NCBI RefSeq assembly: GCF_027497495.1
Contig: NZ_CP114205.1
Location: forward strand, 7,006,001-7,070,000
DNA length: 64,000 nt
Direction of reading: 5' to 3'
DNA from: Streptomyces tubercidicus
Lineage (GTDB): Bacteria > Actinomycetota > Actinomycetes > Streptomycetales > Streptomycetaceae
Below, piece by piece: positions 18,710 to 32,487 of this stretch (position 1 is its first letter; each line of letters starts with the position of its first letter). The translations under genes and the position numbers were made by a program. The notes below the pieces were generated by a model that had not been told where the DNA came from, did no database searches, and worked only from the letters and a program-made list of their open reading frames with translations.

Positions 18710-19027
18710 ATCGGCCTCCCAGGTGGCGGCGGTGCGCAGACGGCATGCCGCCCTACCGCACAGACCTTAGGAGCCCGCCGGGCGCCGGGCGATCGGGGGC
18801 GGCTGATCGGGTGAGGGCGGCGGCGTGTGCGGCGGACCCCGGTCGCGCCGCATCTCGTCCCCGGCTCTCCTCAGTTGTGGCGGGCGATACCGGCAGGTAG
18901 CGGGGCGCGCCGGTCCACGGCGTGCCCGGAGACGGCCCCTACCGATGGCCGCCTCCGGGTGCGCGCCATCGTGACCTGCGGCAACGTGGTGCCGAAGCTT
19001 TCCCCCCACAGGACAGAGGAGTGCGAA
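18710..19027. other. Intergenic region upstream of the CsbD gene
   Basis: About 318 bp between the lipoprotein start and the CsbD start. Short frames cross it with no ribosome site. It must contain the promoters of both. CsbD-type genes are often under a stress sigma factor, but I could not identify a convincing GGGTA-type -10 element. Confidence 0.4.
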
Positions 19028-19222
19028 ATGGGTGACAAAGGCGCCATGGACAAGATGAAGGGCAAGGCCAAGCAGAAGGCCGGCAAGGTCATGGGCAACG
19101 AGCGCATGAAGAGCGAAGGCCGCGCCGACGAGGCCAAGGGCAAGGCCAAGAGCGCGATGGGCAACGCCAAGGAGAACATGCAGGGGATGAAGGACTCCCT
19201 GAAGAGCAAGAACCACTCCTGA
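19028..19222 (+). CDS. CsbD family stress protein
   Basis: 64 residues, nearly all charged, Gly, Ala or Met: MGDKGAMDKMKGKAKQKAG and so on. The pattern of amphipathic K-G-K-A-K repeats with KVMGNERMKSEGRADEAKGK matches CsbD/YjbJ-type hydrophilic stress proteins. In Bacillus csbD belongs to the sigma-B regulon. The ATG follows an AGGAG site. It is followed within 5 bp by a strong bidirectional hairpin. Confidence 0.9.
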   Translation: MGDKGAMDKMKGKAKQKAGKVMGNERMKSEGRADEAKGKAKSAMGNAKENMQGMKDSLKSKNHS

Positions 19223-19226
19223 CGCC

Positions 19227-19292
19227 CGGCGGGGGCGTGGCGGACCCGCCACCCGTCTCCCGGACGTCCCCGGGGCCGCCACGCCCCCGCCG
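19227..19292. terminator. 17-bp perfect stem, bidirectional terminator
   Basis: CGGCGGGGGCGTGGCGG (19227-19243) is the exact reverse complement of 19276-19292, with a 32-nt loop. It lies between the CsbD stop (19222, plus) and the stop of the MFS remnant (19297, minus), the expected place for a shared terminator of convergent genes. Confidence 0.8.
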
Positions 19293-19296
19293 TACA

Positions 19297-19475
19297 TCAG
19301 GTTTTGGGCCGCTCGGGAAACGCAGGCCGCTGAGGCCCCGCGCCCCCTTCGACCGCTGTCTCCGCCGAACGCCCCTCCACCACCCCAAGATCCCGACCGC
19401 GGGTCTCCCGCGCCACGCCCACCGCGACCAGCGTCAGCAACGCCGAGGCGATGTTGAGGCCGGCCCCGCTCAGAG
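19297..19475 (-). pseudogene. C-terminal stub of an MFS transporter
   Basis: Read on the minus strand, a frame with no plausible start ends in a stop at 19297-19299. Its translation contains LTLSGAGLNIASALLTLVAV then VARETRGRDL and a polar tail ending FPERPKT. A last transmembrane helix followed by ETRGRDL is the typical C terminus of major-facilitator transporters. The 55-60 residue stub keeps its own terminator, but upstream it runs into the end of the next gene (stop 19476), and no matching N-terminal part appears in the window. I read it as the left scar of the accessory insert. Confidence 0.65.
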
Positions 19476-20528
19476 TCAGGGCGTGTCGCTGGGCGCGTCG
19501 TCAACCGGGCCGTAACTCGCGGGCGGATCGAATCTTCTCAACAGTTCCTCGGCCGTCTCGTGCCGCTCCTGCGTCTTGATGATGTCGGCGATCTGCTTGG
19601 CCAGCATCCCCCGCCGGTCATCTCCGTCCGTGAAGCCCATACCGGAGAGAAATGCTTCGAAGTGGTCAGCGGCTGTCGGCTCTCGTGTGAACGAAGCGGA
19701 GGGCGCGTCCGCGGTTTCCAGGTAGGGCCGATCGCTCTGCGACTGAGGCAGGAAGTCCCGCAGTCGGTCAGGCACATCCGTGTCGTTGGCCGCGGACGTG
19801 AGCTGGGCGAGCAGACCGAGGTCTCCCACCGTCTTCTCCAGGTGATCGTCGTTCTTCGCGAGCCACCAGACCACCGCGCTGCCGGTGTCCTTGAGTACGT
19901 CCTCGCCCAGGTACTCGCGTTTGCTCTGCTCGTACTTCCGTTGGTGCTCCCAGACGGCCTTGTCCTTGCGCACTTCAGCGAGCTTGTCCAACCGCGCCTG
20001 ATCGTGTTCGCGCAAGGTGAGCGTGACATTCTCCGCCATGACCTGGAGGTGTCCGGTGTGGTCCGGACTCATCCTGCTGAGCGCACCACTCAGCTCGTGC
20101 TGGACGAGTGAGGCCCGACCGGGCTCTCGCTGTTCCGTGAGCGCGCGGGCGTGGTCCAGCACCGTTTCGACGGCGAGGCCCGCCGGGTTGGCGACGGGGT
20201 CGTAGCCGTTGGCTTCGAGGGGGTACCACCGGACGGTCGCGGAGAACAGGAAGTCGTAGTCGGCCCATTGGCTGGGCAGCGGCACGTGGCGGATGCGGTG
20301 TTCCGTGCGTTCGATGGGCACCGCGGTGCGTTGCTCCTCGAAGCCGACCGGTACGGACCCTCGCCTCGCTGCGGCGATCCTTAAGGCTGCTGCCGGTGCT
20401 CCGACCACGAGAACAGCGAGGGTGGCCCACGCCCATGTCGGCCACACCTGTACCAGGCCGAGAATCGTCAGCAGCAGAGCGCACAGGACGGTAAGGAAGA
20501 CGGTCGTCGTCTTGCAGCCGGTCGTCAT
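19476..20528 (-). CDS. Two-span membrane protein of the TIR operon, possibly SPFH-like
   Basis: 350 residues. Two close N-terminal transmembrane helices (about 9-26 VFLTVLCALLLTILGLVQ and 33-52) precede a large cytoplasmic part. It holds beta strands (ADYDFLFSATVRWYPL), a segment ending in VMAENVTLTLREHDQARLDK, a charged coiled coil (KAVWEHQRKYEQSKREYL) and a disordered tail. Strands then coiled coil behind a membrane anchor resemble SPFH/band-7 proteins, but the match is weak. Its ATG overlaps the NTPase stop by 4 bp (ATGA), so it belongs to the operon. A membrane sensor or a membrane-acting component would fit. Confidence 0.6.
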   Translation of the reverse strand: MTTGCKTTTVFLTVLCALLLTILGLVQVWPTWAWATLAVLVVGAPAAALRIAAARRGSVPVGFEEQRTAVPIERTEHRIRHVPLPSQWADYDFLFSATVRWYPLEANGYDPVANPAGLAVETVLDHARALTEQREPGRASLVQHELSGALSRMSPDHTGHLQVMAENVTLTLREHDQARLDKLAEVRKDKAVWEHQRKYEQSKREYLGEDVLKDTGSAVVWWLAKNDDHLEKTVGDLGLLAQLTSAANDTDVPDRLRDFLPQSQSDRPYLETADAPSASFTREPTAADHFEAFLSGMGFTDGDDRRGMLAKQIADIIKTQERHETAEELLRRFDPPASYGPVDDAPSDTP

Positions 20529-22522
20529 GGTGTGGCTCCCCGAGGCGGTGTTGAGCGAGGTGGTGCGGCCGACGGGCGGAGGCCCTGTGCCGCGGAGATC
20601 TTCTGGAGAAGGCGGTCAGTTGTGGCGGCGCCGCGTGCCGGGCCACCGGAGGCGGTGGGTTCCGCTGCCCGGGCCACGGAGTACAGCGCCGCGAGTTGCT
20701 TGCCTTTTCGGTCGGCGGCGTTGACCAGGAGATCGAGCAGCAGGTCATGGCGGTTGTCGGCGTCGCCGGCGGTGTGCAGCCAGCGCTCCGCGTACGGGTG
20801 CCAATGCGGCTGCGGCAGCGCGGCGAACACCCCCCGCCAGCCGAAGGTCACACAGTCCTGTACGTACTGCTCGTCCACCAGCGCGTGGGGCGCGCTTCCC
20901 GGGTCCGTCAGCGGCACCGGGTCGCAGATCCGCAGGAAGATGCGTGCGTCGGCGTCCGAGGGGCGCCGGGTGAGGCGGTCGAGCATGCGGCGCCGGAGCC
21001 TGCTGCTCGTCGCCACCAGATCGCTGAGAGCGTCCAGCGGGAGCGTGGACCCCTGATCACGGCGGGCGAGGTGGTGCAGCCGGACCATTGCCTGATCGGG
21101 ATGGGTCGGCGCGATCACTTCGGTGCAGACGCGGAGCAGAACGTACACGAGGCTTTCCGTCAGCTGCTTGTCTTTGCACCACGTGTAGATCAGATGCCGG
21201 AAACCCCCGCCGTACTTTTTGTGCTCCAGCCCGGGGGTGAGTGCGTGGATTGCCGCCGTTGAACGGGTCAGGGTCTTGGCGTTGGCGCCCCACTCCTCTG
21301 CCAGGGCCGCCAGTTCCTTCCACTGCCCGGCACGCAGGTATTGGTCGGCGAGCCGTTCCACCAGCTCCTCACGGAGGTCCGGAGTGAGGTGTGGGTCCCC
21401 CAGCTCGGTACTGCGCGCGGTCCAGACGCTGAGGAGACGTCTGAGATCGGGCATGTGGTCCCAGAAGTGGGTGCGGACGGCGGCATCGAAGTCCAGCTTG
21501 TCGAACCGCACGTGACCGTCCGGTCCGGCCGACGCGAAGATCTCCTTCAGGCGCTCGGCCAGGTCTTTGCCTTCGAGTGGGACCACCTTTTCCTGAGAGA
21601 TCTTGAAGGTGCGGAGCAGAAGAGCGGCGGCGTGGTGGACGACGTCGGCATGCGCACCGTGCAGCATGGCCGTGGTGATCAGCAATGCTCGCTGTGGTGC
21701 CTCGCGCCGGTCGGTGACGAGACCGGCGACCTCTTGTCGCCAGGCCTTCCGCGCATCGCGGGCCTGCTCACACCAGCTGGCGAAACCGTCGCGCACCGGA
21801 TGCGCTGTACGGGCCCGCCGTACACGATCCGCGAAGTCCGCGATCTCTTCGTTCGAAGGCTCTTCGGCCAGGAAATCCGCCAATGCGGGCGCGGAATGGA
21901 GGTATCCCTCGTGCGGTATCCGGTGGAGTCGTAGGTGACGCCGGAACACTTCCTGGGCCGGAGGGGTTGTGATGCGAGCCCGGTAGAACTGAAGGTCCGA
22001 TTCCAGCGTGTCGTCGTACGGCATGACGACCACCAAGTGCGCCTGCTGTTCCTGCACGGCCTTGCGGAGCGCCGGCAGGGCTCTGCGGCACTCCGCCCAT
22101 CGGGCGCCGTCGGCCTCGGCAAGGTCCAGCAACAGCCGGTCACCGGCGCCGACCAGCCCGGGATCCGTAAGAGCGACTTCGTCTGCGTCGCCGGGAAGCA
22201 ATTCGCGGAAGATGCCGGTGGCAGCCTGGAGTTCGTACAGGAGGACACGGGCTGCGGCAGTTCTGCCGCAGCCCGGAGCGCCGTCCAGGATCACGGTGCT
22301 GTGCTCTGCCAGCAGGCGGCGTGCCTCGCCCATACCGTCAGGGTCGACGAACCGCTGTCTGAGCAGACGAAGCTGGTCGTCTGCGATGCGGCGGGGGCTT
22401 CGGCCGGCCGTCTCCTGCTTCGGCGGGCCGGAGTGGTTGTAGTAGTTGTAATGGATGTCGCCGAAGCCGGCATGCACCGAGCCGTCGGCATGACCGACAC
22501 GTGTCGTGGGCGGTACGTTCAC
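20525..22522 (-). CDS. P-loop NTPase of the TIR operon (STAND-like), variant Walker A
   Basis: 665 residues from a GTG at 22522 that overlaps the TIR stop (GTGA). Residues 14-32 carry the motif GSVHAGFGDIHYNYYN shared with the TIR protein's tail. Walker A is GAPGCGRT (residues 81-88), with Arg87 in place of the usual Lys. A Walker B-like strand is DRLLLDLAEAD (128-138). The remaining 500 residues are helical, resembling the helical repeat arm of STAND regulators (VLLRVCTEVIAPTHPDQAMV and similar). STAND NTPases act as ligand-triggered switches that oligomerise effectors; here the natural partner is the TIR protein. Whether it binds ATP with Arg87 is open. Confidence 0.72.
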   Translation of the reverse strand: MNVPPTTRVGHADGSVHAGFGDIHYNYYNHSGPPKQETAGRSPRRIADDQLRLLRQRFVDPDGMGEARRLLAEHSTVILDGAPGCGRTAAARVLLYELQAATGIFRELLPGDADEVALTDPGLVGAGDRLLLDLAEADGARWAECRRALPALRKAVQEQQAHLVVVMPYDDTLESDLQFYRARITTPPAQEVFRRHLRLHRIPHEGYLHSAPALADFLAEEPSNEEIADFADRVRRARTAHPVRDGFASWCEQARDARKAWRQEVAGLVTDRREAPQRALLITTAMLHGAHADVVHHAAALLLRTFKISQEKVVPLEGKDLAERLKEIFASAGPDGHVRFDKLDFDAAVRTHFWDHMPDLRRLLSVWTARSTELGDPHLTPDLREELVERLADQYLRAGQWKELAALAEEWGANAKTLTRSTAAIHALTPGLEHKKYGGGFRHLIYTWCKDKQLTESLVYVLLRVCTEVIAPTHPDQAMVRLHHLARRDQGSTLPLDALSDLVATSSRLRRRMLDRLTRRPSDADARIFLRICDPVPLTDPGSAPHALVDEQYVQDCVTFGWRGVFAALPQPHWHPYAERWLHTAGDADNRHDLLLDLLVNAADRKGKQLAALYSVARAAEPTASGGPARGAATTDRLLQKISAAQGLRPSAAPPRSTPPRGATP

Positions 22523-23274
22523 CGCTCGTCGTCCTCACGCCGCCGCGGTCCACCGAACTGGTGCCGGATGTCGCCGTGATGGTCGCCCTCGATGTTCGTC
22601 ATGCCATCGCCCGAGTAGTGCCGGCTGCCCGACAGATGGCGGGAATTCTGATAGATGTTGCCGTTGCCGGAATGCACAGGGCCGGTCGGGCCCTTGAAGA
22701 CGGTGCCACCGACATCTCCGGTGAAGTCCCGGCTCTGTACGGCGGTTCCGTGGACATCGCCGGTCGTGTTGGAGACCGAGCCGGGGCCGGGGGCCGCTGC
22801 TGCGGCCTGTTCGAGGTCATACAGCTCGGGAACCATCTCGGCGATCAGATCACCGAGGCGCTTCAGATCGGCTTCGGCACTCTGCGTGTCCAGCCGTACG
22901 GATTGCAGTTCGGCCAGCCGCGCCAGCTCGTCCGGCAGATCGTCCTTCTTCAGACGCTCCGTCCTCATACCGGCCAGGACGGGGATCACCGGCAGTCCGC
23001 AGTCGAACGCCTCCAGGATCTCCTTCCGTACCCAGTCTTCCGGGTCACTCAGGCCGTCCTGGAAGTTGATCCAGTCGGCTCCGATCACCGCCAGAAGCAG
23101 TGCGCTGCGGCGCAAGCTCGTCAGCAGGGCGTCGGGGTAGGCGGTACCCGGCGGGATGGACTTCGAGGCGCGGAAGGCACAGTCCTTACCGAAACGCTTG
23201 GAGAGCTCGTTGTCGATCAGTGCGGCGGTTTCGTGACCGTCGCCTGTCCGGTAGTTGATGAACACATCGGCCAT
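22519..23274 (-). CDS. TIR domain protein with glycine-rich motif tail
   Basis: 251 residues. The ATG at 23274 has a GAGGAGGA site. Residues 1-150 form a TIR domain: strand A VFINYRTGDG, box ending DCAFRASKSIPPGTAY, strand ALLLAVIGADW, and DWVRKEILEAF with Glu85 at the position of the catalytic Glu of TIR NADases. Strand GLPVIPVL follows. Residues about 170-245 are repeats of G-D-V-H/G-D-V-G type, ending GPVHSGNGNIYQNSRH and GDHHGDI. The tail matches the NTPase N terminus. TIR proteins often cleave NAD when oligomerised. It starts 13 nt after the regulator gene and is coupled to the NTPase. Confidence 0.85.
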   Translation of the reverse strand: MADVFINYRTGDGHETAALIDNELSKRFGKDCAFRASKSIPPGTAYPDALLTSLRRSALLLAVIGADWINFQDGLSDPEDWVRKEILEAFDCGLPVIPVLAGMRTERLKKDDLPDELARLAELQSVRLDTQSAEADLKRLGDLIAEMVPELYDLEQAAAAAPGPGSVSNTTGDVHGTAVQSRDFTGDVGGTVFKGPTGPVHSGNGNIYQNSRHLSGSRHYSGDGMTNIEGDHHGDIRHQFGGPRRREDDER

Positions 23275-23287
23275 GGCGGGTTCCTCC

Positions 23288-24601
23288 TCAGGATTGGGTG
23301 AAGCGGGATAACGTGCCGAGTCGCGGGGACAGTTGGCGCACCGAATCGTGATCCGAATGGCGGGCCAGAACGCGGGCGAGACGCCGGAGATCGATCGTGA
23401 CGGTCGCGGAACGTACGGTCGCCACCCCGTCGAGAAGTGGCTCCGCCAACGTGCAGGCATGGTCGATCTCGCCGTCCGCCGCGTAGGCGAGTGCCCGGCG
23501 TACCCCGTAACGCACCTGCGTCCGTACCGCGTCAGGGGAGACCAAGGCGAGCTGCCGGTTCAGCTCCTCGGCCGCCTCCCGCGGGCGACCCAGGTCAAAC
23601 AGACACCAGCCGGTGACCATGCCGACCGAGTCAGGCAGATGCATGCTGCCGATCACCGGTGCGTCGGTATCGTCAACCTGGCGGGCGAGCAGCGCTCGGG
23701 CCCTGTCCAGGGCACGCTGACAGGCGTCGCGGTCACCCGCGAGCGCGTGGCCCTGTGCCTCGCGCTGCGCGGCGAGTCCGCGGATCCGGGGCGGGAGCGT
23801 GCTGCTCTGGGCCCGCTGCGCCAGGGCGACTGTCTGTTCGGCGTTGTCCTGGTACAGCGTGACCAATGCCCGGCGGACCAGCGCATATCCGGCCAGTGCT
23901 CGGTCACCGCCGGCGGCCGCAAGATCCACTGCGCGCTGTGTCCACCACAGTGCCGCCTGTTCGTCTCCGGTCTCCTGTACCAGCCAGCCGACGTATTCGG
24001 CGTACCTGGAGCCGAGTGCGAGCAGCTCTCGTCGGCTGCGGGAATCGGCATGTGCCGACAGCTCCCGCAGTGTGTGGGTCTGCGCGATGAGCCCAGGTAA
24101 GAGGAATCCGGGCTCGACGCTCTGGCCCAGTCGTCGATAGTGCGTGAACAGGGAGCGGGACGCCGCCAGCATTCCGGCCCCCGTTGTCGGCGGGACCGGG
24201 CCCTGACCACCGGTACGCCATCGCATCAATGAGGCGGCGCCGGCGTTCACGACCTGACGCCGGCCCACGGGCTGGAACCAGCCCGAGCCGTCCGGTGACA
24301 GTTGCATCGTCCACTCCTCCTCATCGATTCCGCCTGGTGCCGGTTCATCCGGTTTGCTGGAAACGGACGTGGCAACCAGGGCGATCAGCGCTCCGCCGGC
24401 CCGGAGGGTGGCGTCGCAGAGTCGGGCGAGATCGCGGCTGGGTGCCTTGAGGCCTCGTTCAACCTTGCTCAGCTGCGCCTTGCTGTAGTGCACGGCGGCA
24501 GACAGCGCGGTGAGACTGAGTCCGGCGTCCAAACGTCGCTTTCTCAGTTCCTCGCCGAACTCGGTGGACGGCTGCGGCACGGGACCTCCATAACCATCCA
24601 T
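23288..24601 (-). CDS. XRE-type HTH regulator with TPR-like C-terminal domain
   Basis: 437 residues from an ATG at 24601; an upstream ATG at 24685 is possible, but its GGAG is too close. Residues 15-70 form a Cro/CI HTH (FGEELRKRRLDAGLSLTALS, then YSKAQLSKVERGLKAPSRD). The rest is helical with repeated Ala-rich hairpins (RSLFTHYRRLGQSVEPGFLL, ALWWTQRAVDLAAAGGDRAL), as in Streptomyces HTH-TPR regulators. It is first in the four-gene operon, 13 nt before the TIR gene, so it probably controls the operon or senses the trigger. HTH-TPR proteins in streptomycetes often regulate development or neighbouring genes. Confidence 0.85.
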   Translation of the reverse strand: MDGYGGPVPQPSTEFGEELRKRRLDAGLSLTALSAAVHYSKAQLSKVERGLKAPSRDLARLCDATLRAGGALIALVATSVSSKPDEPAPGGIDEEEWTMQLSPDGSGWFQPVGRRQVVNAGAASLMRWRTGGQGPVPPTTGAGMLAASRSLFTHYRRLGQSVEPGFLLPGLIAQTHTLRELSAHADSRSRRELLALGSRYAEYVGWLVQETGDEQAALWWTQRAVDLAAAGGDRALAGYALVRRALVTLYQDNAEQTVALAQRAQSSTLPPRIRGLAAQREAQGHALAGDRDACQRALDRARALLARQVDDTDAPVIGSMHLPDSVGMVTGWCLFDLGRPREAAEELNRQLALVSPDAVRTQVRYGVRRALAYAADGEIDHACTLAEPLLDGVATVRSATVTIDLRRLARVLARHSDHDSVRQLSPRLGTLSRFTQS

Positions 24602-24834
24602 CCAGGCCAACGGGGCTGCCGCAGGAAAGAATGTGGCAACCCTGGCCGGACGGACAAGGCGAATGGTGCTGTTTCCCGTTTCCATCTCCGTCGGCGAGAC
24701 GCAGTATTCCCACGAGTGCGGAGTCGTGTGGTGACGCGGAGCCCCAGGAGTTGTTTTCGAATGGACCGTGGCGGTGGATTATTCGGTGCCACCGCATCCT
24801 GAACTGCCGGATGTCAGGCGGGAGTTCGTCCGGC
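24602..24834. other. Control region of the TIR operon
   Basis: About 230 bp between the operon start and the AlkD remnant. It is relatively AT-rich for this genome. Short frames cross it but show no ribosome site. The operon promoter should lie here; I could not fix a convincing -10/-35 pair. Confidence 0.4.
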
Positions 24835-25047
24835 CTACTCCCCCCGCCGCTGCACCGTCTCGGCGATCCACACGGGCGCGAACGGAGATGTGCAACCCGC
24901 GGACGTCGGATAGTCCTTGAGGACTTCCAGGCGTTCGCCGATGGCGAGGGCGCGGAGTGTGGTGAGGTTTACACCATGATCGTCGCCGTGTTTTTCGTTC
25001 ACCGCGCGTGTCCGCGGGTCCTCCAGCTCGGCCAGCACCTCGGCCAC
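24835..25047 (-). pseudogene. AlkD-like DNA alkylation repair protein with its middle deleted
   Basis: The 70-codon frame opens MAEVLAELEDPRTRAVNEKH then GDDHGVNLTTLRALAI, matching the N terminus of DNA alkylation repair (AlkD-type HEAT repeat) proteins. It continues directly into GERLEVLKDYPTSAGCTSPF then APVWIAETVQRR, which matches the C terminus of the same family in streptomycetes, normally about 230 residues long. Around 160 internal residues, with most of the HEAT repeats and the active site, are missing without loss of frame. It cannot work as the enzyme. I read it as the right scar of the accessory insert. Confidence 0.6.
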
Positions 25048-25179
25048 TGTCGTCTCGGCTACCGCAGCCTCTGTCCGTCACGTGCGGATTCAGCCTACGA
25101 CGGGGGCGGCCGCCTGTCGTACGGGCCGGTTCGGCGGCGGGCAACGGTACTAAGTCGCAGGTCAACGGTGTCGTGGCGG

Positions 25180-28100
25180 TCAAGGGGTGAGGGTGGCCGT
25201 GGCCAGATCGCGCCAGTTTGTCCGGGTTCCGGCCTGTGTCGCCTCGGTGAAGCGCCTGGCGCCGAGGTTGCGTCGCGCGGTGTGCTCGATCCGGGCGACA
25301 TCCGGTTGGGAGCGGTCCGGGAGACCGCGCACGGCGGTGCTCGCCGCGAGCAGCCGGGCGGCTTGCTCGTACTGGTGGTCGCGTAGCGCCAGATCGGCGA
25401 TCCCGACGAGCACCTGCGCGATCAGGGGCGCGTGCCCCGCCTCGGACGCCGCGTGGAAGGCCGCGATGCGGTGTGCGCGAGCCTTGTCGAGATCCTCGGC
25501 GAGGTAGCCGAGCAGGTCTTGGATCACCGCGCGGACGTTGGGCCGCTCGGCGTCGTCGCCCAGCATCGCTGTCGCGGCGTCGAGTTGCCGGTGTGCCTGC
25601 TCGGGGTTGCCGCTCCAGCGCGCCAGATCCGCCTTCGCCATGGCCAGCTCGGCCAGCGCACTCGGCCAGGCGACACGTTCCGCCGACCGCTGGGCTTCGG
25701 CCATGGCAGCGACGCCGGCGTCCGCATCGCCCAGCAGCCAGTACAACTGGGCCTGCCGCGACCGGATGCGTACGACGTCCTCGATGGCGCCGACCTCGGT
25801 GACGACCGCGACGGCCTGTTCGTAGTACTCGCAGGCTCCGGCGAACTCGCCGCGTACCGCGCTGCGTTGGGCCAGCTCGCTCAGGGCGAAGGAAATCCCC
25901 CAGCGTTCGCCGAGCGCGCGGAATTCGGTGAGTGCCGTCTCCAGATAGGCGTCCGCGTCCCGGCCGTCGTGGCCAAGGATGATCCGCATCTTGCCGAGGT
26001 GCAGCCGGGCAAGGGCGCGTACCCAGGGGTCCTCGTCGGTGAGCAGCGGTTCGAAGGCGGGGAGGAACGCGTCCGGCGCTTGCAGCATGCGTTTCAGGGG
26101 GGCGACGAACCCCAGCGCCGGGTGCGGGCGCGGAAGCCGTCGGCTGATGTCGTAGGCCCGGTGGATCCACTCCTCCGCCTGGTACTGATCGGCCAGTCCG
26201 GAGGTCATGAACATGATGACGAAGGCGTAGACCATGGCCCGGGTCCCGTCGGCCACCTCGCCGGGGAGGGCGGTGGCCGCCATGATCAGCTCATTGCCCT
26301 CGGCCTTGTGCCCGCCGAGCCACCAGTACCACCCGGCGGCCGCTGCGAGCCGCATCGCCCCCTGCGCCTCGCCCGCCGCCAGGGCATTCCGCATCGCGGC
26401 GGCGATGTTGTCGTGCTCGATGTCGAGCGCGGTGAGCCATTCCAATTGCTCGGCGCGGCGGAGGTGTGGATCCGCGGCTTCGACGAGTTCGGTGAAGTAG
26501 GTGAGGTGTCTACGGCGCGTGAGATCCGATTCGCCCGTCTCCGCGAGTCGTTGAGCGGCGTACTCCTTGATCGTGCCGAGCATCCGGTAGCGGGGCGCCC
26601 GGTCGCCCTCGGCGAGTACCAGCGATTTCTCGGTCAGTGCCGTGAGGAATTCGAGCATCTGGGCCGCGTCGGCGGCATCGTCGGCGCAGACCCGCTCGGC
26701 CGCTTCCAGGCTCGCGCCGCCGGAGAACACCGAGAGCCTGCGCAGCACCCTCCGTTCGGCGTCGGTGAGCAGTTCCCAGCTCCAGTCGATCACCGCACGC
26801 AGCGTCCGGTGCCGCGGTAGTGCGGTGCGGCTGCCGCCGGTCAGCAGGCGGAACCGGTCGTCGAGCCGATGGGCGTGCTGATCGAGGGACATGGTGCGCA
26901 ACCTGGCCGCGGCGAGTTCGATGGCCAGTGGCATACCGTCCAGGGCCCGGCAGATGCGCGCCATGGCCGACATCGCGTGGGCGTCCGTCGCGAGGTCCTT
27001 GCGCACCGCGACGGCTCGGTCCCGCAGCAGCCGGACGGCCGGCGAGGACTCGATCCCGGCGGGGCCGGCGTCCTCCGCGGGCAGGGCCAACGGCGCGACC
27101 GGCCACAGCGCCTCACCGGTGATGCCGAGGGGCTCCCGGCTCGTCGCGAGGATCCGCAGCCGCCGGCACTCCCCGAGCACGCGATGCGCGAACGCCGCCG
27201 CGGACTCGATCACATGCTCGCAGTTGTCCAGAATGAGCAGCATCGCCTGTTCGCGGACCGCGGCGATGACCCGGTCCGTCGGCTCCGCGTCCGGTGCCTC
27301 GCCGAGCAGCGCATCCCGCAGACCGAGCGCGGCGAGCGTCGCCTGCGCCACGTCACCGTCGGCGCCGATGGCCGCGAGCTCCACCAGCCAGGCCCCGTCC
27401 GGCAGGTCGTCGAGCAGCGTGTGCGCGGATTCCGTGGCCAGTCTGGTCTTCCCCGAGCCGCCCGGCCCGGTCAGGGTGGTGAGCCGGTGGTCGGCGATGA
27501 GTTCATGGACCGTGGCGACATCGGCTTCCCTGCCGACGAAACTGGTCAGCTCCGCTCGCAAGTTGCTCTTACGGGCTTCCTGCCGCCGCCCCAACTCGCC
27601 CCGCAGCAGTGCGAGATGCACGGCGGCCAGCTCCGGTGAGGGGTCGACGCCCAGTGTGGCGGCCAGGGTTTCCCTCGTGCGCTCGTACAGGAGCAGCGCC
27701 TCGCTGTCGCGGCCGGTCGCGACGAGGGCCCGCATCAGCGCGGCGACCAGTCGTTCGCGTACCGGGTGCGCGGCTACCAGGTCGGTCAGTTCGGTGACCA
27801 GCTCCGCACCGTGGCCGAGGCCGATCTCCGCATCGAAGCGGTCCTCCATGGCCGTCAGGCGGAGCCCCTCAAGCCGGGTGACCGCCGCGCAGAACGCCGT
27901 GCTGTCCGGCAATCCGACGTCCTGCATGGCCGCACCGCGCCACGAGGCGAGGGCCTCGCGCAGCAGCCGCACCCGCCGTGGATCGTCATCGTGACGGGCC
28001 TGGCCGACGAGGCGTTCGAACCGCACCGCGTCGACGGCGTCGGGTTCCACCCGCAGCCGGTAGCCGTCCGTCTGCCCCTCGACCAGCCCTCCCGGCAGCG

Positions 28101-28317
28101 CCTTCCGCAGCCGGGACACCAGGCGCTGCAAGGCATTTGCCGCGTCAGCGGGCGGGCGCTCCCCCCAAATCCAGTCGATGAGCGCCGCCTTGGGGACCAC
28201 GTGACCCGCCTTGAGCGCGAGCGCGATCAACAGTGCGCGCAACCGGGCGCCCGGAACCTCGGCGAGGACGCCGTCGTCCGTACGAACCTCAAGAGATCCC
28301 AGCATCCCGATCTGCAC
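25180..28317 (-). CDS. AfsR/SARP-like regulator: BTAD, NB-ARC-type ATPase, TPR
   Basis: 1045 residues from a GTG at 28317, MQIGMLGSLEVRTDDG. Domains in order: an OmpR-like DNA-binding winged helix (about 1-90, with LRALLIALALKAGHVVPKA and LQRLVSRLRKAL); a BTAD helical domain (about 95-240); an NTPase with Walker A GPGGSGKT and Walker B MLLILDNCEH; and TPR repeats to the end. This is the layout of large AfsR-type activators of antibiotic and other secondary genes. It is divergent from the P450 gene, with 155 bp between starts, so the P450 is the obvious target. Confidence 0.9.
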   Translation of the reverse strand: MQIGMLGSLEVRTDDGVLAEVPGARLRALLIALALKAGHVVPKAALIDWIWGERPPADAANALQRLVSRLRKALPGGLVEGQTDGYRLRVEPDAVDAVRFERLVGQARHDDDPRRVRLLREALASWRGAAMQDVGLPDSTAFCAAVTRLEGLRLTAMEDRFDAEIGLGHGAELVTELTDLVAAHPVRERLVAALMRALVATGRDSEALLLYERTRETLAATLGVDPSPELAAVHLALLRGELGRRQEARKSNLRAELTSFVGREADVATVHELIADHRLTTLTGPGGSGKTRLATESAHTLLDDLPDGAWLVELAAIGADGDVAQATLAALGLRDALLGEAPDAEPTDRVIAAVREQAMLLILDNCEHVIESAAAFAHRVLGECRRLRILATSREPLGITGEALWPVAPLALPAEDAGPAGIESSPAVRLLRDRAVAVRKDLATDAHAMSAMARICRALDGMPLAIELAAARLRTMSLDQHAHRLDDRFRLLTGGSRTALPRHRTLRAVIDWSWELLTDAERRVLRRLSVFSGGASLEAAERVCADDAADAAQMLEFLTALTEKSLVLAEGDRAPRYRMLGTIKEYAAQRLAETGESDLTRRRHLTYFTELVEAADPHLRRAEQLEWLTALDIEHDNIAAAMRNALAAGEAQGAMRLAAAAGWYWWLGGHKAEGNELIMAATALPGEVADGTRAMVYAFVIMFMTSGLADQYQAEEWIHRAYDISRRLPRPHPALGFVAPLKRMLQAPDAFLPAFEPLLTDEDPWVRALARLHLGKMRIILGHDGRDADAYLETALTEFRALGERWGISFALSELAQRSAVRGEFAGACEYYEQAVAVVTEVGAIEDVVRIRSRQAQLYWLLGDADAGVAAMAEAQRSAERVAWPSALAELAMAKADLARWSGNPEQAHRQLDAATAMLGDDAERPNVRAVIQDLLGYLAEDLDKARAHRIAAFHAASEAGHAPLIAQVLVGIADLALRDHQYEQAARLLAASTAVRGLPDRSQPDVARIEHTARRNLGARRFTEATQAGTRTNWRDLATATLTP

Positions 28318-28472
28318 TCGGGTGATTTTGCCATGGGGGTGGGGGAGCGGCGTTGGGTGAGGAGCGCCGACCGTCTCTCCGCAGGGTGGTGTCAGTGCCG
28401 TGTCAGCCATATGTCCGGCCCTTCGGCGAGGGTGGCCGCACGGCAACCACAACCGCCACGAGAGGACATCCC

Positions 28473-29729
28473 ATGAGTCAGACGGCTGCCATTCCGCACG
28501 GCCTCCCGGTGGAGCGCGACGCGGGTCCCTTCGACCCGCCCCGCCTGCTCACCCGGCTGCGCGAGACCCGCCCGGTCAGTCCTCTGGTCTTCCCCGACGG
28601 TCATGAGGGCTGGATCGTCACCGGCTACGAGGTGGTCCGCCAGCTCATGGCCGACACCCGGTTCAGCTCCCGCCAGGACATCGGCGTCATCCACGACGCG
28701 ATAGAGATCCCCGGCATGCCCACGGTTACCGAACCGTCCCCGCAGGTGCCGGGGCTGTTCGTCGCCATGGACCCGCCGGACCACACCCGGCTGCGGCGCA
28801 AACTCACCGGCGCCTTCACCGTCAAACGAATGAAGCAGCTCGAAGAGCACATCGTCGATATCGCCGAGCAGCAATTGGACGAAATGGCACGCCTGGCCCC
28901 GCCGGTCGACCTGGTCAAGGAATTCGCGCTGCCGGTGCCGTCCCTGGTGATCTGCGCAATGCTCGGTGTGCCCTACGCGGACCGGGAGAGCTTCCAGGCC
29001 AACTCCGCAAACTTCCTGAACACGGACCTGTCGCTCGACGAGAAGATTGCCGCGTATACGGAACTGACCACGTACCTGGGCGAATTGGTCACGCGTAAAC
29101 GCGCCACCCCCGGCGAAGACCTGCTGTCCGACCTGGCCCTCGATAGCGACCTCACCATCGAGGAGCTGACCGGTATCGCCTTCCTGCTGCTGCTCGCGGG
29201 CCACGAGACCACCGCCAACATGCTGGCACTGGGCACCTTCGCGCTCTTGGAACACCCCGAGCAACTGGCGGAACTGCGCGCCAATCCGGAGCTGCTCCCC
29301 GGTGCCGTCGAGGAGCTGCTGCGCTACCTCTCCATTGCCGATAACTTCTATCGCTATGCCACGGAGGACATCGAACTCGGCGGCGAAACAATTGGCGAGG
29401 GATCGACCGTCGTGGTCTCCCTGCTGGCCGCCAACCGCGACCCGAGGCGTTTCGACAACCCCGACACCCTGGATATCCACCGCAAAGCCCGTGGCCATCT
29501 GTCTTTCGGCCACGGCATCCACCAATGTCTCGGCCAGCAACTGGCCCGCATCGAGATGCGCGCCGGTTTCGCCGGACTGCTACGCCGCTTCCCGACGCTG
29601 AAGCTCGCCCTTCCCGCCGATGAGGTGAAGCTCAGGACCAATATGCGGATCTATGGCGTTCATGCTCTGCCGGTTACTTGGGCGGAGGCCGAGGCGGAAA
29701 CAGAGACGGAAACGGCGACGGAGCGGTAG
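28473..29729 (+). CDS. Cytochrome P450 (CYP105-like)
   Basis: 418 residues; the ATG follows GAGAGGA. Motifs in order: FVAMDPPDHTRLRRKLTGAF (C helix), I-helix oxygen-binding AGHETT, E-x-x-R in EELLR, and heme loop FGHGIHQCLG with Cys352 as the thiolate ligand. The overall pattern suggests the CYP105-type bacterial class I P450s that oxidise macrolides, statins and xenobiotics. No ferredoxin gene follows. The C-terminal tail WAEAEAETETETATER is an unusual acidic repeat. It is probably activated by the divergent AfsR-like protein. Confidence 0.9.
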   Translation: MSQTAAIPHGLPVERDAGPFDPPRLLTRLRETRPVSPLVFPDGHEGWIVTGYEVVRQLMADTRFSSRQDIGVIHDAIEIPGMPTVTEPSPQVPGLFVAMDPPDHTRLRRKLTGAFTVKRMKQLEEHIVDIAEQQLDEMARLAPPVDLVKEFALPVPSLVICAMLGVPYADRESFQANSANFLNTDLSLDEKIAAYTELTTYLGELVTRKRATPGEDLLSDLALDSDLTIEELTGIAFLLLLAGHETTANMLALGTFALLEHPEQLAELRANPELLPGAVEELLRYLSIADNFYRYATEDIELGGETIGEGSTVVVSLLAANRDPRRFDNPDTLDIHRKARGHLSFGHGIHQCLGQQLARIEMRAGFAGLLRRFPTLKLALPADEVKLRTNMRIYGVHALPVTWAEAEAETETETATER

Positions 29730-30024
29730 GGCGGTAGGACGGTAGGGCTTTCGGCCGAGCGTCCGGGAGCCGGCCAGCGCGCCCGGCTCGGGGATCGGGC
29801 CGGGCCGTAGCGGACCGGCCGGTCGGGTGGTGGCCGCGTGTCGCTCGGGCCCGCGGGCGCATCCGGCGTAATCGCGGCGGATCCGGCATGAGAGGAGGGG
29901 CGTACCGGGAATTCGTCCTGTCGTGCGAGCACCGGCTTGCCGCGCCGTGTCTTCTGCCGACGGCGATCAGCGCGACGGCACGAATGGCGGCGGCCTCGAT
30001 ACCGCGAGAAAGGAACCACGGTTC
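29730..30024. other. Intergenic, no feature recognised
   Basis: About 295 bp between the P450 and the DJ-1/PfpI gene. Apart from a short GGTAGG repeat right after the P450 stop, I see nothing but the GAAAGGA ribosome site at 30008-30014 for the next gene. Confidence 0.5.
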
Positions 30025-30573
30025 ATGCAGATTGCTTTCCTGGTAGCGCCCGAGGGCGTGGAGCAGGTCGAACTGACCGACCCCTGGCAGGCGGTTCATG
30101 ACTCGGGGGACGTTCCGCATCTGGTGTCCACGAAGTCCGGCCGGATCCAGGCGTTCCACCACTTGGACAAGGCCGATACCTTCCCGGTGGACCGTACGGT
30201 GGACGAGGCCGATGTGGCGGATTACGGCGGTCTGGTCCTGCCCGGTGGCGTGGCCAATCCCGATGCATTGCGGATGGACAAGAATGCGGTCGCTTTCGTG
30301 AAGAAGTTCTTTGACCGTGGCAGGCCGGTGGCGGCCATTTGTCACGCACCGTGGACGCTGATCGAGGCCGATGTCGTACGGGGGCGCACTCTGACGTCGT
30401 GGCCCAGTCTGCGGACGGATATCCGCAACGCCGGGGGCACCTGGGTGGACGAGCAGGTCAAGGTCTGTACAGCGGGAAACAACACGCTGATCACCAGCCG
30501 GAAGCCGGCCGATCTGAATGCCTTCTGTGCCACCTTCGTCGCTGAATTCGCCCAGGCCGGGAGGGCTGCCTGA
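30025..30573 (+). CDS. DJ-1/PfpI family protein (class I glutamine amidotransferase-like)
   Basis: 182 residues. The fold signature is IAFLVAPEGVEQVELTDPWQ at the N terminus, YGGLVLPGGVANPD, and the nucleophile elbow AICHAPW with Cys106. Family members act as intracellular proteases, glyoxalases or chaperones in stress; PfpI-type members keep the His after the Cys, as here. The ATG at 30025 follows GAAAGGAACC. It is a single gene; the next gene starts 79 nt on. Confidence 0.88.
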   Translation: MQIAFLVAPEGVEQVELTDPWQAVHDSGDVPHLVSTKSGRIQAFHHLDKADTFPVDRTVDEADVADYGGLVLPGGVANPDALRMDKNAVAFVKKFFDRGRPVAAICHAPWTLIEADVVRGRTLTSWPSLRTDIRNAGGTWVDEQVKVCTAGNNTLITSRKPADLNAFCATFVAEFAQAGRAA

Positions 30574-30652
30574 GGGCGGCCGGCGACCGGGCATTCGCGT
30601 GAACCAGGGTGCGTACGGGCGTGAACGGGTCGAGCATGGACATTGACTGATC

Positions 30653-31408
30653 ATGTTTGCCGGTGAGCGGAGTCCACACCTGGCGCGCGGATTGGCGCGA
30701 ACGGGCGATCGCCCATGCCGGGAGGCATGGGCGGCCCTCCTGCTGGCCGCCGGCGCCGTGCTCTACAACGGCTGGCTGCTGGAGTACCTGCTGCCGACCG
30801 GGCTGGATCCGCGCCACTCGTACGTCAGCGAGCTGTACGCCGCCGACCAGCCCTTCCGTCCGCTCTTCGGCGGCATCGAAAGCCTCTGCGCCGTATTTGT
30901 CGCCGTGGGGGCGCTGCTGGCGTACGGGTCCGCGTCCGATGGCTGGGGGCGGGGCGGCTGGCTGGCGATGCTCGGCCTCGGGATGTCCTCCGTGGCCGAT
31001 GTCCTGCTGCCCATGCGCTGCGCGCCCTCGGTGGAGCCGGCCTGCGCGGCCGTGCACCCGAGCCATACGGTCACCAGTGCACTGGCTCACTTCTTCGTCT
31101 TCGCCGCGATGGCGCTGCTCAGCCGGGCCGCGGTGACCGCCCGGCCCCGTCTGCCGCTGCTCCGCCGCTGGGGCCCGCGCGTCCTGGCGCTCGCCCTGCC
31201 GACCGCCGTCTGTACGGTCGGCCCGCTCTTCGGCCGGCCCGGCTGGCACGGTATCCCGCAGCGGGCGCATCTGGCGCTGGTGGGCGTGTGGTTCGCCCTG
31301 CTGGCCGTCGAGTTGGCCAGGTCGTCCTGGGGGCGGCGTACCGGCTTGGTGACGTCAACTGGCCTGCGGGAGCGGGAAGAAGACGTTCCGGTGGCGGACG
31401 CACCGTAG
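30653..31408 (+). CDS. DUF998 integral membrane protein
   Basis: 251 residues. Six transmembrane helices can be followed (AALLLAAGAVLYNGWLLE, IESLCAVFVAVGALLAY, WLAMLGLGMSSVADVLLP, ALAHFFVFAAMALLSRA, VLALALPTAVCTVGPLFG, LALVGVWFALLAVELA), with the conserved loop RHSYVSELYA after helix 1 and CAPSVEPACA after helix 3. This matches DUF998. Function unknown. A short stretch of 79 nt separates it from the DJ-1 gene, so cotranscription is possible. Confidence 0.85.
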   Translation: MFAGERSPHLARGLARTGDRPCREAWAALLLAAGAVLYNGWLLEYLLPTGLDPRHSYVSELYAADQPFRPLFGGIESLCAVFVAVGALLAYGSASDGWGRGGWLAMLGLGMSSVADVLLPMRCAPSVEPACAAVHPSHTVTSALAHFFVFAAMALLSRAAVTARPRLPLLRRWGPRVLALALPTAVCTVGPLFGRPGWHGIPQRAHLALVGVWFALLAVELARSSWGRRTGLVTSTGLREREEDVPVADAP

Positions 31409-31680
31409 GGGTATGCCCCGCAGCCAGGCACTCGATGTCGTTGTCTGACAGCAACACCCGTTGACTGCTTGGCAGTTCGGGCCGGGCCCAAGTGCGGTAG
31501 GACCACGACCTGCACGGCCTCGGGGCACGTCACCCACGCAGTTGGACGTCTGCCGCCCCCTGTGTCAACAGGCCCGGGGCGCATGCCGGCCATATCCGGG
31601 CGCCCGTACGGGCAAGGCAACCGCGGCTCTCTCCACGGCCTCTCCATAGGCGACTTTGTTCGATCGCCGATGGAGGACTG

Positions 31681-32487
31681 ATGAGCAAAGCGAGATCACA
31701 CCGCGCCACCTTGGCGGGCGTGGTGTTGGCGGGGGCAGTGGCGGCGCTGGTGACGGCATCCGCCCAACCCGCCGCCGCGGTCGTCGGGGGAGACCGGGCC
31801 GAGATCAAGAAGTATCCGTGGACCGTCGCGTTGACGTCGCGGGATGTGAAGGATCCGGAGTGCGCGGGCACGCTCGTCGCGCCGCGCAAGGTGCTGACCG
31901 CGTCCCACTGCGTCAGTCCGGCCACCGTCGACGGCGTACGGGTGGTGGGCGGACGGGAGGATCTGCGGGACACCCGCAAGGGCACCGTTCGCAAGGTGGC
32001 GAAGCTGTGGATCCACCCCAAGGCCGTCACCGAAGGGAACGGTGCCACATACGCGCACGACCTCGCCGTTCTCACCCTCAATGCCCCCATGCCGTACCGC
32101 ACTCTGCCGCTCGCCACCCCGGCGCAGCAGAAGCTGTACGAGGAGGGCACGCCCAACAGGGTTCTGGGGTGGGGCTCCACGACCGGCCGCGACGACGACT
32201 ACCGCGTCCCGCCGCTGCAGACCGCGCTGATCCCCAACAGGGGCGACGAGCAGTGCATCACGGCGTATGGCACCCGCCGGTACCGCGCGGCCTACACGAT
32301 GTGCATCGGCTACCCGGCAGGCGGAGTCAGTGCCTGCAATGGGGACAGCGGGGGACCGGTCGTGGTGCGGGGGCGGCTGGTCGGTGTCATCAGTGGTGGC
32401 GGCAGTTGCACCAGCCGTCTCTACCCTGGCGTCGCCGTGAAGTCGGCCTCCTACTACTCGCTGCTCCAGAGCCAGATCGCCGGATAG
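31681..32487 (+). CDS. Secreted trypsin-like serine protease (chymotrypsin fold, S1)
   Basis: 268 residues, with GGAGGA before the ATG. The signal peptide runs to about residue 33 (QPAAA), and mature VVGGD fits a trypsin N terminus. The catalytic triad is complete: His76 (TASHC), Asp127 (AHDLAV), Ser223 (NGDSGGP). There are cysteine pairs for disulfides. No propeptide beyond a few residues is evident, so activity may be controlled by secretion. It is followed 22 nt later by a paralogue. Confidence 0.92.
   Translation: MSKARSHRATLAGVVLAGAVAALVTASAQPAAAVVGGDRAEIKKYPWTVALTSRDVKDPECAGTLVAPRKVLTASHCVSPATVDGVRVVGGREDLRDTRKGTVRKVAKLWIHPKAVTEGNGATYAHDLAVLTLNAPMPYRTLPLATPAQQKLYEEGTPNRVLGWGSTTGRDDDYRVPPLQTALIPNRGDEQCITAYGTRRYRAAYTMCIGYPAGGVSACNGDSGGPVVVRGRLVGVISGGGSCTSRLYPGVAVKSASYYSLLQSQIAG

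Follow-up and report, generated by a model that had tools for sequence, protein, structure and literature searches.

In Streptomyces and other bacteria, remnants of resident genes have been described at the edges of islands, where a gene is truncated at the point at which accessory DNA of lower G+C content begins. Integrative elements, including ICEs, AICEs and tRNA islands, are recognised by an associated tRNA gene or by repeats at their edges. A different body of work concerns bacterial amyloid signalling sequences (BASS), published as ten families, which link NLR/STAND proteins to effectors encoded in adjacent genes (PMC7889193, PMC12261475). The locus reported here lies in a stretch of 64,000 nucleotides (hereafter the window; bases 7006001-7070000) of a complete (100%), single-contig Streptomyces genome of 8.28 Mb, and consists of the 3' stub of a transporter gene of the major facilitator superfamily (MFS), placed between the small gene for a CsbD-like protein and an accessory segment that begins with a TIR–STAND operon. 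In all likelihood the stub is what remains of a resident transporter of the MHS type, most of which was removed by deletion where the accessory segment now sits. The stub is an ordinary, well-documented kind of evolutionary scar, and greater interest attaches to the TIR–STAND cassette beside it. The features are listed in Table 1.

Table 1. Features at and around the left edge of the accessory segment, in window coordinates.
Feature	Position	Strand	Remarks
GAF/CdaR-type regulator, 13-codon 3' tail	18862..18900	+	aligned to G064, G391, G295 and G349
CsbD-like stress protein, 64 aa	19028..19222	+	PF05532, E 1e-14
Convergent hairpin	19218..19301	.	31-nt arms 19218-19248/19271-19301 containing a perfect 17-bp stem
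MFS C-terminal remnant, ~52 codons	19297..19455	-	collinear with intact MFS genes of relatives
Joint sequence, about 20 bp	19456..19475	.	matches neither transporter nor cassette homologues
Accessory segment, 12.1 kb	19456..31562	.	stands where G064, the sister genome, has 4.07 kb
350-aa protein with N-terminal hydrophobic segments	19476..20528	-	fourth operon gene, last before the joint
STAND NTPase, nSTAND3-like	20525..22522	-	score under the curated cut-off
TIR-domain protein	22519..23460	-	Gly/His/Asn-rich C-terminal motif region
NsdA-family HTH/TPR-like regulator	23288..24685	-	first operon gene; overlaps the TIR frame (TIR start uncertain)

On the minus strand the stub reads ...LNIASALLTLVAVGVARETRGRDL...PERPKT*, with its stop codon at 19297-19299; followed further upstream, the frame reads RRAQRHALTLSGAGLNIASALLTLVAVGVARETRGRDL...PERPKT* and stays open for 67 codons, with no ATG start in frame. 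The encoded sequence matches MFS C-termini in 59 of 150 Streptomyces genomes, its own included (E ≤ 1e-3, best 4e-8). At the DNA level, the region comprising CsbD and the stub aligns collinearly to loci where the CsbD-MFS pair is intact, with 81% identity to G064, the sister of the source genome (E 1e-164), and 80% identity to G295 (E 3e-159), and the stub portion alone is 80% identical to G391 DNA (E 1e-13). Judged from these sequences, a chance match to the MFS loci is excluded. A Pfam scan of the 67-aa frame gave no match; the assignment to the MHS/MFS group is based on orthology and DNA alignment and not on a family model, and by these the stub is assigned to the 3' end of a formerly intact MHS-type MFS metabolite:H+ symporter.

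An earlier reading of the DNA by sequence alone had also seen an MFS C-terminus here, which the matches to relatives bear out, but had let it run to 19475. In an alignment with five intact relatives, transporter homology drops abruptly at 19453-19456; hence the remnant amounts to about 52 codons, and the last transmembrane helix, which that reading had noted, is present but itself cut. The same reading had noted that the N-terminal part of the transporter does not appear on the island's far side, and indeed this part is absent both from the window, that side included, and from the whole 8.28-Mb chromosome. The host has no second orthologue of the transporter, the next best MFS protein being 48% identical.

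A frame that stays open for 67 codons, includes part of one hydrophobic helix and is still highly identical to relatives in this helix and in the motif ARETRGRDL might be taken for a small membrane protein that has been retained for a function. This is very improbable, given that an in-frame ATG is missing, the helix is truncated, the residues upstream of it come from joint DNA, Pfam recognises nothing in it and a stand-alone form was found in no other genome searched. The stub today probably makes no protein, and it is presumably now the 3' untranslated sequence of the TIR operon.

The intact locus is preserved in six relatives (G064, G295, G391, G349, G137 and G194) in the order lipoprotein – bdhA – GAF/CdaR regulator – CsbD> <MFS. 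The CsbD-MFS pair that the sequence-only reading had expected in the same place in relatives is thus there, in the sister genome too; the C-termini of the full-length proteins match the stub, and the four-gene TIR–STAND cassette, which other species carry as a unit elsewhere in their genomes, occurs there without the stub. In G064 the MFS protein is of the MHS type, has 551 aa and is convergent with CsbD. It spans the full TIGR00883 model with 432.2 bits, which is below the curated cut-off of 443.45 bits, and reaches that of PF00083, and its C-terminus is the part matched by the few codons that the window copy retains. The G064 bdhA product matches TIGR01963 above its cut-off. By its content, the bdhA/regulator/CsbD/MFS locus would form a module for uptake and oxidation of a hydroxy acid, e.g. 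3-hydroxybutyrate.

A tree made from the neighbouring Nudix-lipoprotein flank DNA groups the window with G064 (100/100) and places this pair beside G295, G391 and G349 (80/92). Since these four neighbours are all intact, the transporter was lost on the branch that leads to the window alone. Flank sequences differ little among these species and the gene content beside the CsbD hairpin is variable, as might be expected if the scarred segment (CsbD, stub and island) had been imported whole by homologous recombination from another Streptomyces. Such an import is unlikely, as the flanks group with the sister genome, which is what vertical descent predicts, and no donor with the same joint is present among 393 Streptomyces genomes.

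The edges of the accessory segment were placed by comparison with the sister genome, in which window position 19453 corresponds to 1389310 and window position 31563 to 1385235, and the left edge of the island is now located within about 40 bp. G+C content is 67-69% within the segment as against 71-73% in the flanks. Two genes adjoin the MFS gene in G064, one encoding a secreted protein and the other a trypsin-like one, and neither was found in G391, G295 or G349; hence the 4.07 kb need not all be ancestral and only the loss of the MFS gene is certain. The longest word shared by the two edges, in direct or inverted orientation, is 7 bp, no tRNA gene is present in the window, and a scan of the ten main frames from 19476 to 32487, with the short frames partly covered, found no integrase or transposase. 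By the absence of a tRNA gene and of edge repeats, the segment differs from an integrative element. It resembles the island-edge remnants in that a resident gene is truncated where lower-G+C accessory DNA begins, with the intact version kept by a sister species, but departs from them in having neither tRNA gene nor attachment repeat and in that the incoming operon is apparently cut at the same joint. The island may also be composite, since for the DUF998 gene in its right part none of the nine homologues compared has any of the window's neighbours within ~1.5 kb. That the joint is an assembly error is hardly credible in a genome that is 100% complete in a single contig, with an island of coherent gene content and edges without long repeats.

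The operon at the left of the segment ends within a few bases of the stub, as had been read from the sequence; its last stop codon is at 19476-19478. PADLOC gave no match for the TIR, STAND or 350-aa genes; NCBIfam gave none for the TIR or STAND genes and assigned the first gene to the NsdA family. The sister genome holds a divergent copy of the four-gene cassette at a different site (L081, 5671000-5686000; 32-50% identity). The C-terminus of the TIR protein and the N-terminus of the adjacent STAND protein have a short GPVHTGxGDIY-type motif in common; its score was reached by 0 of 2000 shuffles for the G204 pair, by 0 of 2000 for the G389 pair and, in the case of the window's own pair, by 25 of 2000. 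As in BASS systems, the motif is thus shared between neighbouring proteins, and the pair looks like a putative case of homotypic, BASS-type signalling.

In relatives the operon is longer. Of the 23 genomes with a fourth gene of 63% identity or more, 20 have a fifth gene immediately after it (17 full-length, 3 partial), a count made by comparing the coordinates of fourth-gene and fifth-gene matches. The fifth gene encodes about 138 aa (e.g. L079 5014-5427, L060 1035-1448), has no match in Pfam, and carries the C-terminal motif NxINGGVQHGPVIQSGRITGLTFH, which looks like RHIM/BASS3. Unlike these loci, the window has no fifth gene; the host protein closest to the fifth-gene product, at 39% identity, is encoded at another site. 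This comparison suggests that the joint which truncates the transporter probably also cut the TIR operon, which lost its fifth gene there. It is possible, as a tentative proposal, that the joint has cut an undescribed five-gene Streptomyces operon for immunity or cell death (NsdA-like regulator-TIR-STAND-membrane-RHIM-like) with two short homotypic motifs; if this were true, the host's version would lack the RHIM-like partner and might be disarmed or rewired. The probable incompleteness of the TIR–STAND operon here is relevant to the choice of strain, and G204 and G179 have the five-gene form.

The sequence-only reading had proposed that the insert arrived together with the deletion of most of the transporter. 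The loss itself holds, and the sequence is compatible with more than one order of events. A single step is a realistic possibility, in which illegitimate or homology-facilitated recombination brought in an island that had lost its fifth gene beforehand or never possessed one, and most of the transporter was replaced in that event: one event would account for the sharp joint, and the fifth gene could have been absent before the cassette arrived, as it is missing from 3 of the 23 close cassettes, which lie at other sites, and as G312 has a four-gene form with a hairpin of its own about 50 nt downstream. It is from these three cassettes that this route keeps its standing. Against it, the fifth gene of 20 of the 23 close homologues lies exactly where the joint is, so that a loss there is simpler, and further deletion remnants occur at 24835-25047 and to the left of CsbD. 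Several mechanisms are compatible with the 20-bp joint sequence and with edges that share no repeat longer than 7 bp. The probable loss of the fifth gene at the same joint favours a later deletion across a pre-existing border between island and transporter, which we regard as somewhat the likelier course.

The following order of events is the one that we infer under a cross-border deletion. A conserved locus of bdhA, GAF/CdaR regulator, CsbD and convergent MFS gene would once have been intact, and on the window's lineage an accessory segment would have come to occupy the upstream side of the transporter. A deletion would then have taken the transporter except for its last ~52 codons, and the same joint most likely cost the incoming NsdA-like regulator-TIR-STAND-membrane operon its fifth gene, while a second deletion would have taken bdhA and the regulator on the opposite side of CsbD. 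The TIR operon would now read through the stub as a 3' trailer and then meet the shared hairpin; with the stub as such a trailer, the operon would in effect have taken over the terminator of the transporter.

The hairpin, reported in the sequence-only reading as a 17-bp stem terminator convergent with CsbD, is found as described, with a perfect stem of that length. It folds far better than shuffled sequences (z = -4.9 and -5.8 for the two strands), lacks an obvious T run, and contains both stop codons in its outer arms; it is kept in G064, G137, S. kronopolitis and S. sioyaensis. It is likely a shared two-way terminator, so predicted from its fold, for CsbD and the gene opposite; in the window that opposite side is now occupied by the TIR operon, which presumably ends at this old MFS/CsbD hairpin. 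The stub sequence itself is able to form a weaker stem.

On the other side of CsbD, comparison with the six relatives shows a deletion between about 18820 and 18862, one that the sequence-only reading had not noticed, which took bdhA and all of the regulator gene but its 3' tail. Only 47 bp separate the lipoprotein-side homology from the CsbD-side homology in the window, where G064 has about 3 kb, and the best bdhA-like protein of the host is 40% identical. CsbD therefore stands between two 3' gene stubs, the regulator tail and the MFS remnant, and the loss of bdhA and the regulator is attributed to a second deletion, separate from that on the MFS side. The losses identified at this locus are thus the transporter and the pair of 3-hydroxybutyrate dehydrogenase and regulator, both of which the sister genome has kept. 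Just past the cassette, at 24835-25047, a frame of 70 aa joins the two ends of a Streptomyces protein of ~223-235 aa, and this frame appears to be an internal-deletion remnant of a parent protein that, by eye, is possibly DNA-alkylation-repair-like. Together with the deletion to the left of CsbD, this remnant points to deletions being frequent here.

The site beside the CsbD hairpin appears to be a hotspot of turnover, with content differing from species to species. S. kronopolitis and S. sioyaensis have neither bdhA nor the regulator between lipoprotein and CsbD, and their similarity to the window reaches 19303-19305, just beyond the hairpin, after which unrelated genes follow. At these two loci beside CsbD (L048 and L049), the genes that begin immediately after the hairpin in S. 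kronopolitis encode a methyltransferase, a luciferase-like monooxygenase, an aldehyde dehydrogenase, BtpA and an aminotransferase, and in S. sioyaensis the CsbD hairpin is followed by frames other than those of S. kronopolitis.
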